A stretch of 64,000 bases of DNA from Prochlorococcus marinus str. MIT 0918 (GTDB lineage: Bacteria > Cyanobacteriota > Cyanobacteriia > PCC-6307 > Cyanobiaceae). Location: the NCBI RefSeq assembly GCF_027359415.1, contig NZ_CP114780.1, positions 992,001 to 1,056,000 of the forward strand. Reading direction: 5' to 3'. The translations under genes were made by a program, and so were the position numbers. The notes beneath the pieces were generated by a model. It was given only the letters and a program-made list of their open reading frames with translations, was not told the origin of the DNA and searched no databases. Below, one piece after another: positions 21,532 through 26,830 of this stretch (the stretch's first letter is position 1; every line of letters starts with the position of its first letter).

Positions 21532-24210
21532 GTGAGCAAGTCAGCCGCAGAAACTAAAAAATTATTTAATCCAATTGACTTTGAGCAATTAATCAATGAT
21601 GAGATTCATCAGCCAGCTCAATACATGGGCAAAGAGCTTGGTACTCAAAACCAAGACTGGCATAAAAATGAAGTCCATTGGGTACTGAGTTATCCAGAAT
21701 TATATGAAGTAGGTGCAAGTAATCTTGGACATATAATTTTATATTCAATTCTCAATAAAATTCCAAATCAACTTTGTGACAGGGCATATCTCCCAGGACC
21801 TGATCTAGCAAAACGTCTACGAGAACAGTCAGTAGGTTTATTTGGTGTGGAATCTAGACAACCTTTAAAGAACTTCGACCTGATTGGATTTAGTCTCAGT
21901 TACGAATTAGGTGCAACAAATATTTTAGAGATGCTTGATTTAGCCGAAATTGATATTTACGCAAAAAATCGAGAAAACCTTAAATTAAACGATCCACATT
22001 CCTCTCCATTGATTTTTGCAGGGGGGCCAACAGCAACAAGTAATCCCGAACCCTATGCCTACTTTTTTGATTTTCTTGCTCTGGGAGACGGAGAAGAACT
22101 ACTCCCAGAAATAGGATTGATCATACAAGAATCCAAAAGATTAGCACTGAAGAGAACTGAAGCACTTCTTTACCTCTCTGAAATACCAGGTGTATATGTC
22201 CCTTCTCTATACCAAGCAAATCCTGATTACTCTTCGATTGAGCCATTAGACAAGTCATCCCCAAAGCAAATTATTAGACGAGTTGCCAATCCAATGCCCC
22301 AATATTCGATGGGGCTTGTCCCATACGTTGAAACAGTCCATGATCGACTAACAATTGAAATTAGAAGGGGTTGTACTCGCGGATGCCGTTTTTGCCAGCC
22401 TGGTATGCTTACGCGTCCAGCAAGAGATGTTGCTCCAGAAGAAATTGTCACCGCAGTTGAAACAGGGATGAAAAAAACTGGTTATAGCGATTTCTCTTTG
22501 CTATCACTTAGCTGTAGTGATTATTTATCCCTCCCACAAGTTGGTGTTGAACTTAGAAATAAGCTTGGAGACAAAAACATCACTTTACAATTGCCTAGTC
22601 AACGGATAGATAGATTTGATGACAATATTGCTCATATCCTTGGTGGTAGCCGCAAAGCAGGACTTACTTTTGCACCTGAAGCAGGAAGTCAACGGTTAAG
22701 AGATATTATTAATAAAGGCCTCACAAATGCTGACCTGCTTAATGGCATACGCAAAGCAATGGAGCATAAATACAAAAAAGTAAAGCTATATTTTATGATC
22801 GGATTACCAGGAGAAACAGATGAAGATATAAAAGACATTGCTGCAACCTGTCATTGGCTACAGGACGAGTGCAAAGACTTTGGAAGGTTATATCTTAATC
22901 TAACAATCAGTAATTTCACTCCTAAACCACATACACCATTTCAATGGCATAGTGTTTCTAGTCTTGAATTACAAAGACGTCAAGAACTTCTAAAACTAGA
23001 ATTTCAAAATCTGAATCTTAAGCATATCAAAATTAATTTTACAGATGTCAGGATTTCAACTATCGAAAATTTCCTTGGACGAGGAGATAGGCGACTGGCA
23101 CCTGTTATTGAAACAGCTTGGAAAAGTGGGGCAGGGATGGATGCTTGGTTCGAATCCCAAGACCGTGCTTATAAAGCATGGTCTATTGCGATCTCTAAAG
23201 CAGGCCTTCAAAATAAACTCAGAGATATAGAACTAGGCACTTGGGAATCGGTTAGAAAACTGACTGAAGATGAATTAATCGCTTTCTGCTCAAAACCACT
23301 TCCTTGGGACCACATAGATACAGGAATAAATAAGCAATGGCTAATAAAAGACCTCCAAAATGCTCTTGCGGCTGATACTGTTCCAGATTGTTCCTTTGAT
23401 AAATGTAGTAATTGTGGCGTATGCGGTCCTGAATTAGGTCACAACAATGTAATACAACCTCAAGAAATACCAGTCAGAGAAGACACTCAGTCCCCACATA
23501 TAGATAGAAAATGCCGAATAAGAATTAAATTTGCAAAAACAAATCCTATGCATTTAATAAGTCATTTAGATCTAATACGTTTATTAGAAAGAACATTCAG
23601 AAGAAGTGAATTGCCGATTAGTTATTCAGGTGGGTTTCATCCTCTTCCAAGATTGCAAATTGCACTTGCATTACCACTTGGTGTAGAAGGATTCGGAGAA
23701 TGGATGGATGTTGATTTCTATGAAGAAGTTGATCCTAAAATTATAAGAAATCAATTGCAGCGATTATTACCTAAAGGGATAAATTTACTAAAAGCAGAGA
23801 CAATTTTAATTAATAAAACTAGTCTTTCCCAAAATTTATCAAAAGCAAAATGGAGCTTTGTAATTACTACTAATTCCAATGAAGAAATGAATTTAAATAA
23901 ATGGAATCAAGCAATACAAAACATACTCAATTCACAAGAGCTAATTTGGATTGATACTAATAAAAAAGGGCATCGACGGGAAAGGGATTTTAAGCCTCAG
24001 TTAAACAGCTTAAAATTGAAAGATGCAATAATTAATGATAAAAAAACATCTAATCAAAAATCTATTTCAATAGAACTTGAATCCTCAATCTCGCCATTAG
24101 GTCAGAGCATAAAGCCAATACATGTAAAGTATTGGCTAACAAATTCTTTAGAAGCTACTTTGAGCATTACAGACATACAAAGAAATGAACTTATCTTAAA
24201 AAAGTGCTAA
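21532..24210 (+). CDS. Large radical SAM protein with C-terminal DUF2344 domain
   Basis: An 892-residue protein of the family annotated as B12-binding-domain radical SAM fused to a DUF2344 domain. The radical SAM core has the motif CTRGCRFC at residues 281-288, followed by the conserved LLSLSCSDY and [11 protein letters not shown] blocks. A Cys cluster ([13 protein letters not shown]) lies near residue 625. From about residue 660 comes the DUF2344 segment, recognisable by [17 protein letters not shown] and SGGFHPLPR. The start is GTG at 21532. It lies directly upstream of rne, an association I recall from many cyanobacteria. The function is unknown; a role in tRNA or rRNA modification is speculation from context. 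Confidence 0.85.
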
Positions 24211-24268
24211 AATAACTTTGGGTTGGTCAAAGGCTAAGTAGAGCTCAATCACCCTGAGGTTATTTTGG
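24207..24268 (+). ncRNA. Long imperfect hairpin at the start of the rne leader
   Basis: CTAAAATAAC at 24207-24216 pairs with GTTATTTTGG at 24259-24268 over 10 bp with one G.U. The pairing continues inward through 24217-24222 with 24253-24258, and, after one mismatch, 24224-24227 with 24248-24251, for about 20 bp in all. Five pairs are G.U when read as plus-strand RNA and would be A-C mismatches on the other strand. The hairpin begins at the stop codon of the upstream gene and has no T-run behind it, so it is not a simple terminator. Confidence 0.55.
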
Positions 24269-24459
24269 AAGAGCGATCAGTTTCAACTCAAAAAATCCGG
24301 GAAGTTGTATCCGGCACTTCATCAATCAATTCTTAATAAGAGCTAGCTCTCTTTTTTTAATCCTTCCAAAAGCCTAGATCTTAACGATTATCCAACTCAT
24401 AAGCAGATTTCCTGCAAATTATTTTTAAACACTGAGCACAGAACTCTCTTTTTTTCTAT
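24211..24459 (+). promoter_or_regulatory. 249-nt spacer and leader of rne
   Basis: There is no reading frame of note. After the long hairpin comes a weak second hairpin (GAAGT at 24301 with ACTTC at 24316). The palindrome AGAGCTAGCTCT follows at 24339-24350, then C and seven T, and a second CTCTCTTTTTTT lies at about 24443-24454, just ahead of the ATG. U-rich leader elements control RNase E autoregulation in other bacteria and have been described for a cyanobacterial rne, so this region is a candidate for the same feedback. The palindrome plus T-run could also act as a weak attenuator. Confidence 0.5.
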
Positions 24460-26250
24460 ATGCCCCAAAAAATTATCATCGCAGAGCAAGAGCGAATAGC
24501 CGCCTTGTTCACCGATGACCGAGTAGACAAATTAATCGTTGCACAAGGTCGTTACCAAATTGGAGATGTCTATTTAGGCACAATCGAGAATGTACTTCCA
24601 GGGATAGATGCTGCCTTTGTAAACATTGGAGCAAGTGAAAAAAATGGATTTATTCATGTAACAGATCTAGGTCCTTTAAAGCTACAGAAAAATGCTTCTA
24701 GCATTACCGAATTACTAGAGCCTCGTCAAAAAGTCTTAGTTCAAGTAATGAAGGAGCCAACAGGGAACAAAGGCCCTCGGCTAACAGGAAATATTTCATT
24801 GCCAGGTAGATACTTAGTGCTCCAACCAAATGGACAAGGCGTAAATATTTCTCGACTAATTAATACAGAAAATGAAAGGAATCGACTGAGAGCCTTAGGA
24901 GTCTTAATTAAACCTCCTGGCACAGGATTAACAATTCGTTCTGAAGCTAAGCAAATAGCAGAAGAGTTAATAATAGAAGATCTTGAAAATCTTCTAAAAA
25001 AATGGGAATTAATACAACAAGCATCCGAACGCGCTAATCCCCCGACACTCTTAAATAGAGATGAAGATTTTATTCATAGAGTTCTTCGAGATCACATAAA
25101 TTCTGAATTGTCTAAAGTTATTGTTGATTCAAATGCAGGGCAAGAAAGAGTTAAAAGATTTCTTGCGCAGGATTACTCAAATGTGATAGTTGAATGTCAT
25201 AACGAACCTAACAATTTAATTGAACACTTTAAAATTGACACGGCAATATTAAATGCTCTCAAGCCAAGAGTAGATCTTCTCTCAGGTGGTTATATCATAA
25301 TTGAACCTACAGAAGCATTGACTGTTATAGATGTAAATTCAGGATCTTTTACTCGATCATCTAACTCTAGAGAAACAGTTCTATGGACAAACTGTGAAGC
25401 AGCTGTAGAGATAGCCAGACAATTAAAGCTTAGAAATATTGGCGGTGTAATTGTAATTGATTTTATTGATATGGAATCACGAAGAGATCAATTACAACTT
25501 TTAGAATATTTTACATCCGCAATAAAAGATGACTCTTCAAGGCCTCAAATTGCTCAATTAACTGAACTAGGCTTAGTCGAGCTAACTCGAAAAAGACAAG
25601 GACAAAATATTTATGAATTATTCAGCAAAGAATGTAGCCACTGTTCAGGGCTGGGTCATATTGCCAAAATGCCTGAGAAAAAAGAAATGCACTCTTCAGT
25701 TTTGAATAATACCAATGCCGATAATATATCGAAAGAAAATGAAATCAACTCAAATAATCAAATCAATAATATTCCAGGAGAAAAAGGAGAGTCTAAAACA
25801 AAAGTATTAAGCCAAGAATTAAACATTGAAGAAGCAAATGCATCGCAAGAAATAGAAAAAGTTTCTATCAAAATGGATGCTGAAGAAGAGTATGTATATA
25901 GCTATTTAGGATTAAGTCCAACTTTACTGCTAGACAAAGAAACAACCAATGACAATCTATTAGTACATGTAATTAGAAAAAATGAAGAGAATGATGACCT
26001 TTTAAAACAAGAAGAAGTAACAGAGGTAATTACAACCAATACGAGAAAGAAAGCTAAAGAAAGCATTCAAGATTTATCTATAGAAACAGAATTGATTGAT
26101 AATCAAGTCGAAGCTATTCAAGAGATATCTAATAAAAAAGAAAATAATTTAGAAGTTAATCAAATTGATTCAACAGAATCAGATCAACAAGCACCTGAGG
26201 AGATAGAAGACCCTAGGCGCCGTAGAAGACGTTCATCTGCTTCTAGTTAA
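24460..26250 (+). CDS. rne: Ribonuclease E/G
   Basis: RNase E is the main endonuclease of cyanobacterial mRNA decay and RNA processing. The 596-residue compact form has an N-terminal S1 domain (residues 35-120, containing [20 protein letters not shown]), a central catalytic region with the metal-binding aspartates in VIDVNSG and VIDFIDME, and the Zn-link CSHC near residue 392. The C-terminal 190 residues are acidic and variable, ending in [11 protein letters not shown]. An arginine-rich terminal peptide like this is known to bind PNPase in cyanobacteria. It starts at ATG 24460 and is followed one base later by rnhB. Confidence 0.95.
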
Positions 26251-26251
26251 A

Positions 26252-26830
26252 ATGAATGAACCAATAGTCGCAGGTTTAGACGAAGTAGGGAGAGGAGCCT
26301 TGTTTGGGCCAGTTTATGCAGGAGCAGTCATTTTAGAAAAGAACGCAGAAACAGATTTGATTACAGCAGGTCTCAAAGACAGCAAAAAATTATCCGCTAA
26401 AAAAAGAGCTGCTCTAGTTCCATTAATTAAACGTGCATCTCAAAGCTGGGCTATTGGTGAAGCCTCAGCAAGAGAAATAGATTTAATTGGCATTCGTGCG
26501 GCCACAGAAAAAGCTATGTTGCGAGCGATCTCTTCTCTATCTCCGAAACCAGATCTACTTCTTATTGATGGGAAATTACCCTTACAAGGCTGGTTAGGTC
26601 CTCAGCAAACATTAATCAAAGGAGAAGATAAGGAAGCCTCTATAGCTGCATCAAGTGTTTTGGCTAAAGAAGCCAGGGATGCAATTATCAAACAATTAGC
26701 AAGTATTTACCCAGGTTATGGTTTAGAAAAACACGTTGGTTATGGCACAGCCTTTCATCGAAATGCATTAATTAAATCCGGCCCAACAAAGCTTCATAGA
26801 AAAACTTTTTTATCAAAAATAATTTCATAG
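26252..26830 (+). CDS. rnhB: Ribonuclease HII
   Basis: RNase HII cuts RNA in RNA-DNA hybrids and removes misincorporated ribonucleotides. The 192-residue product shows the family motifs: [15 protein letters not shown] at residues 8-22 with the first catalytic Asp-Glu pair, DSKKLS near 43, LLIDGK near 102 with a further Asp, and [21 protein letters not shown] near 122, here quoted only as a landmark. It starts at ATG 26252, one base after the rne stop, so the two are cotranscribed and perhaps coupled. It ends 18 bp from the convergent DUF1997 gene. Confidence 0.95.

Follow-up and report, generated by a model that had tools for sequence, protein, structure and literature searches.

In Escherichia coli, RNase E, a messenger RNA-degrading enzyme, is known to regulate its own synthesis: the 5′ untranslated region (UTR) of rne, represented in Rfam by the family rne5, is a long leader of hairpins through which RNase E exerts feedback in cis. 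A structured RNA is likewise located upstream of rne in pseudomonads (the rne-II motif of Rfam). For cyanobacteria the closest described systems are those of Synechocystis, in which the enzyme cleaves the 5′ UTR of its own mRNA at a U-rich site, rne UTRs of 458–622 nt being reported for this and other non-marine cyanobacteria (PMC10989929), and of Prochlorococcus MED4, for which an autoregulatory cleavage site in the rne 5′ UTR has been reported (Stazic et al. 2016, cited through PMC9692554). The transcription start TSS1 of MED4 rne has been mapped at −220, and phage P-SSP7 bypasses the MED4 site by having transcription begin at G+3 of the start codon (PMC9692554); the part of the text of that paper drawn on here does not describe the fold of the leader. 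For marine cyanobacteria, we found no account of what form the sensor takes.

The locus described here lies in a window of 64,000 nucleotides from a Prochlorococcus chromosome of 1,789,313 bases, and all coordinates refer to this window. A dapL-like aminotransferase gene on the minus strand is followed by a radical SAM fusion gene, by rne and, from 26252 onwards, by rnhB. The rne gene had been named in a preliminary description of this DNA, made from the sequence alone, and this assignment is confirmed by matches to two NCBIfam families (TIGR00757 and NF052586).

21532–24210, plus strand: gene for a TIGR03960/TIGR03936 B12-binding radical SAM fusion protein (open reading frame list, NCBIfam)
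24460–26250, plus strand: rne, ribonuclease E (TIGR00757, E = 1.6e-132; NF052586, E = 5.2e-219)

The encoded RNase E scores 729 bits against a curated cut-off of 900 for the cyanobacterial equivalog, despite an E-value of 5e-219, and its best-matching stretch comprises residues 1–419, which points to a short or divergent C-terminal part. Because rnhB (RNase HII) begins only 2 bases past the last base of rne (26250–26252), the two genes probably share a transcript and the leader. The radical SAM (TIGR03960/TIGR03936) gene is absent between dapL and rne in the HL and NATL-type genomes tested, in which dapL is directly divergent from rne, with promoter and leader being kept.

The locus shares with MED4 the gene itself, a homologous −10 element and start, and a hairpin at the 5′ end, but the leader sequences are mostly unalignable, and the 5′ hairpin, which is local in MED4, takes the form of a long-range helix (helix I) here. 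With Synechocystis 6803 it has in common a long structured rne leader, a U-rich tract and presumably RNase E feedback, whereas the premature termination proposed there is unsupported in the window. Its fold differs from that of E. coli rne5. Searches against Rfam gave no match at gathering threshold; rne5 gave none in the window up to E = 10 and none in four other leaders (L015, L027, L035 and L077), and the pseudomonad rne-II motif gave none in the window. The best score among riboswitch families, 20.6 bits for SAM-II against a gathering score of 44, lies across the promoter and is regarded as chance. The leader fold thus matches no Rfam family. We consider it likely that the region consists of a promoter and a structured rne 5′ leader of about 240 nt, with RNase E feedback as its function. 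The gene and region singled out in the preliminary description are thereby upheld; autoregulation, which it also proposed and which has been reported for MED4 and Synechocystis (PMC9692554, PMC10989929), is retained as the likely function only.

The promoter and the predicted start of the rne transcript

About 140 rne upstream regions were gathered from Prochlorococcus, marine Synechococcus and relatives, including genomes that we take to be those of SS120, MIT9211 and MED4; a further 80 loci, mostly distant RNase E/G genes, were excluded. The motif TGnTAnnnT is present at −212 to −286 in nearly all Prochlorococcus and marine Synechococcus leaders, and is missing or located farther out in the leaders of several other genera, which are probably larger-genome Synechococcus/Cyanobium types. 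In the window this element lies 255 nt ahead of the rne start codon and overlaps the stop codon of the upstream radical SAM gene (TAA, 24208–24210), which falls inside the promoter. The outer 5′ arm of a long hairpin, discussed below, also begins within it.

24205–24213, plus strand: extended −10 promoter element TGCTAAAAT of rne (TGnTAnnnT, at the equivalent position in other leaders)
24218–24220, plus strand: predicted rne transcription start (−10 offset carried over from MED4 TSS1, PMC9692554)

The conservation of the motif might be ascribed to the stop codon, but TGnTAnnnT persists in HL and NATL-type genomes, from which the radical SAM gene has been lost. In MED4 the −10 motif begins at −233, 13 nt before the mapped TSS1. 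As the motif in the window is placed in the same way as that of MED4 relative to TSS1, transcription of rne should begin near 24218–24220.

A covarying fold in the rne leader

Taken by itself, the 253-nt leader is only as stable as shuffled sequences (z = −0.55), so that its structure becomes apparent only by comparison with relatives. RNAalifold, applied to 18 leaders, returns helix I, helix II (GGAAG/CUUCC), a small GGCUC/GAGC hairpin and hairpin V. The helices of the model contain 8 pairs with double changes, compared to 2.4 ± 1.2 in shuffles (0/500). Against column shuffles the RNAalifold alignment energies give z-scores of −7.2 to −16.7 in six sets; the same shuffle gives −1.4 to −4.9 for coding controls, which shows that it is somewhat lenient. 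The reverse strand of the alignments scores nearly as well (z = −9.3 and −14.7), as is expected for helices that are mostly Watson–Crick. When plain MAFFT alignments were put to a strict G-test whose null was based on a tree, no pair fell below E = 0.4, a result that we attribute to the shortness of the arms, to gaps and to the small size of the sets; the case for covariation therefore rests on the tests used in its place, i.e., cognate-arm permutation, pair counts and a covariance model. This model (R1), trained on 18 near relatives only, recovers the leader at full length, up to the start codon of rne, in clades outside the training set, with E-values down to 5.6e-10. In scans of whole genomes it never has more than one match per genome, and 23 genomes of other cyanobacterial families yield none. 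Two weak matches (G023:C3:16979-17214, E = 0.007, and G026:C4:27127-27254, E = 0.08) are not known to adjoin rne, and no match to the leader was found in phage genomes. On the comparative evidence of double changes, permutations, RNAalifold and the covariance model, the structured leader suggested in the preliminary description holds, and a leader of about 240 nt with a conserved fold ahead of rne is, as judged from the aligned sequences, real.

24219–24226, plus strand: helix I 5′ arm UGGGUUGG, tying up the predicted mRNA 5′ end (RNAalifold consensus, permutation test)
24392–24399, plus strand: helix I 3′ arm CCAACUCA (consensus and permutation; the window has a compensating U-to-C change)
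24220–24255, plus strand: alternative local 5′-terminal hairpin GGGU...ACCC (fold of −9.3 kcal/mol; the form that other clades use here)
24232–24245, plus strand: small hairpin GGCU/AGCU of the first domain (paired in 89.6–91.7% of cells; only one of its four pairs varies)
24263–24271, plus strand: helix II 5′ arm UUUUGGAAG, overlapping the 3′ arm of the hairpin of the preliminary description (94.8% of cells paired)
24363–24371, plus strand: helix II 3′ arm CUUCCAAAA (pair counts, RNAalifold consensus, cross-clade test)
24297–24314, plus strand: hairpin III CCGG/CCGG (compensated in relatives, z = −6.7)
24339–24350, plus strand: hairpin IV AGAG/CUCU (a weak stem here; several relatives have 5 to 6 bp)
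24403–24415, plus strand: hairpin V GCAG/CUGC (91% of cells paired; in the RNAalifold consensus)
24434–24446, plus strand: hairpin VI GAG/CUC (a weak stem here; z = −5.1 for LLIV-type leaders)
24444–24459, plus strand: U-rich tract before the start codon, candidate RNase E site (U fraction 0.43)

Helix I contains 5 double-changed cells, compared to 1.3 in permutations (16/5000). Its compensated changes are A-U to G-C in the window, G-C to A-U in leader L016, G-C to U-G in L007 and G-C to U-A in SS120, and a G·U pair within the helix, conserved in 17 of the 18 leaders, points to the plus strand. The long-range helix is broken or weak in L003, and the LLIV-type clade has a local hairpin instead. 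In every clade a helix begins at the 5′ end, as set by the promoter motif, or no more than a few bases from it, but its sequence is unrelated: UAGUUAUGAUU/AAUCAUAGCUA in HL, GACGC/GCGUC in LLIV-type and UAGAAC/GUUCUA in NATL leaders. For 112 leaders of all clades the cognate arms of these 5′ helices pair with −10.8 kcal/mol, against −7.8 kcal/mol for permuted arms (z = −12.4, 0/2000), a score that may be raised by differences between clades. For this reason the values that matter are those obtained at control positions (z = −1.0 to +1.6) and inside the LLIV-type set (z = −4.5); among HL leaders, as among those of this genus, the 5′ arms are too invariant for such a test.

Helix II is supported across clades when NATL leaders are included (z = −3.24, 2/5000), with compensated versions in NATL (CUUGAAGGGA/UCUCUUCAAG against CUUAAAGAGA/UCUCUUUAAG). 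Permutation within the clade of the window alone was not significant (z = −0.85), because helix II hardly varies there. Hairpin III, already noticed in the preliminary description as a second short hairpin, occurs in relatives as UCCGG/CCGGA, CCUGG/CCAGG and GCCUGG/CCAGGC. Hairpin VI takes the forms GAGCU/AGCUC or GAGCC/GGGCUC in relatives, and is 38% paired in the genus alignment, in which it is poorly aligned. A repeated CTCTCTTTTTTT, described earlier, is indeed present at 24347 and 24444. In this genus the U fraction before the start codon amounts to 0.43, compared with 0.30 elsewhere in the leader, and a Shine-Dalgarno core was found in none of the leaders tested. By analogy with Synechocystis (PMC10989929), the U-rich tract may be cut by RNase E.

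Alternative readings of the leader

The preliminary description had drawn one hairpin of about 20 bp at 24207–24268, starting at the stop codon of the upstream gene and containing five G·U pairs. As plus-strand RNA this segment folds with 16 + 4 + 4 pairs at −23.4 kcal/mol (z = −4.39), none of 200 shuffles being equally stable. The overlap with the TAA codon at 24208–24210 is correct, and the pair list places all five G·U pairs within the outer 20 pairs. The stable fold is therefore real, but it is wrong as a functional unit: as far as about 24217, its 5′ arm belongs to the promoter and should be absent from the rne transcript. Since the predicted rne start lies inside the hairpin, the outer ~11 pairs, which use promoter DNA, would form only in read-through RNA. 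The genus alignment shows no excess of compensation in the outer helix, the pairs of which are either fixed or broken, and the RNAalifold consensus omits it; the hairpin as drawn has 5 double-changed pairs, against 3.6 in shuffles (102/500). Compensatory changes, which the preliminary description had expected in relatives, are thus found in the leader and not in this hairpin, and the hairpin as a single functional unit is rejected on account of its uncompensated outer helix. The conservation of UUUUGGAAG is explained by the outer 3′ arm of the hairpin doubling as the 5′ arm of helix II. That a hairpin of 16 to 20 bp works as drawn, by processing or stabilizing read-through RNA from the upstream gene, would agree with its formation in such RNA at the energy given above and with the weaker outer pairing seen in several relatives, but with its outer pairs uncompensated, its 5′ arm constrained as promoter and its 3′ arm as part of helix II, this role is very improbable. 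Even less probable is a transcription attenuator, in which the hairpin at 24339–24350 and seven T would end most transcripts before rne. The palindrome AGAGCTAGCTCT, from which this function had been surmised, is present at 24339–24350 and is followed by C and a U-run of seven T (24351–24358), and premature termination after the rne UTR has been inferred for Synechocystis (PMC10989929). However, the stem before the U-run has an energy of only −2.6 kcal/mol, among 12 members of the genus a U-run of 6 or more occurs in just one, the window itself, and a terminator scan did not find an attenuator candidate. The attenuator claim fails on the weak stem and the unconserved U-run.

A different question is posed by the 5′ arm GGGUUAG, which in this clade has two candidate partners, a local UUAACCU and a distant CUAACUC. 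Both partners occur in most of the genus, and in several members the predicted populations are split between both forms, as would suit a conformational switch triggered perhaps by temperature or by the binding of RNase E or another protein. RNAalifold picks the distant partner on the 18 leaders. Compensation within the clade is seen for the long-range partner only (z = −2.3, versus +0.5 for the local one), and in the window transcript helix I has a probability of 0.54 and the local form of 0.02, which makes such toggling decidedly improbable. As a separate observation, in LLIV-type and Synechococcus leaders (e.g., L027) GAGGCC can pair either with AGGCCU, which lies upstream, or with a stretch of CCUC downstream, with a cognate-arm signal for both pairings (z = −5.5 in the LLIV-type set and −3.9 in Synechococcus), and this alternative pairing is a possible switch. 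It is doubtful that the marine picocyanobacterial leaders constitute an undescribed RNA family outside Rfam, in which the rne 5′ end is always held in a helix, long-range or local according to clade, and in which the leader of the clade with the long-range pairing switches between two states and thereby reports free RNase E. Finally, the structure may mainly stabilize the rne mRNA, like the 5′ stem-loop of E. coli ompA, or tune its translation, without RNase E feedback. Both the paired 5′ end, which is the sole feature common to all clades, and the lack of a Shine-Dalgarno core in any leader tested speak for this. Nevertheless, a simple protecting hairpin needs neither some 200 nt of extra conserved structure nor a second long-range helix, and an autoregulatory site has been reported in the MED4 UTR, as related in PMC9692554. 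We therefore regard this explanation as unlikely, and prefer RNase E feedback.

The proposed feedback mechanism

By analogy with the described systems, RNase E probably limits its own production through the leader. RNA polymerase would start at about 24218–24220 from the extended −10 element that lies over the upstream stop codon. The first RNA bases would then be tied up in helix I, which is long-range here and replaced by a local 5′ hairpin in other clades, while the second long-range helix and the small hairpins would form a compact domain. Between this domain and a start codon without Shine-Dalgarno sequence, the RNA would be U-rich and for the most part unpaired. Decay by RNase E is generally viewed as either dependent on the 5′ end or starting by internal entry. 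The helix at the 5′ end suggests that 5′-end-dependent decay may be blocked and that RNase E would enter at internal, unpaired U-rich sites. In such a mechanism the sequestered 5′ end would close the quick decay route, and the fate of the mRNA would be set by RNase E, which would bind to the fold of the leader and cleave it close to the start codon, where U-rich sites are single-stranded. At high RNase E levels the mRNA would be destroyed, and at low levels it would be translated.

The result is a concrete model of the leader, backed by covariation and with named arms, the pairing predictions of which are directly testable. The model fits the report of a phage that raises RNase E via a transcription start downstream of the leader. 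It further suggests that the double-stranded 5′ end is a trait under selection while the sequence that forms it changes.
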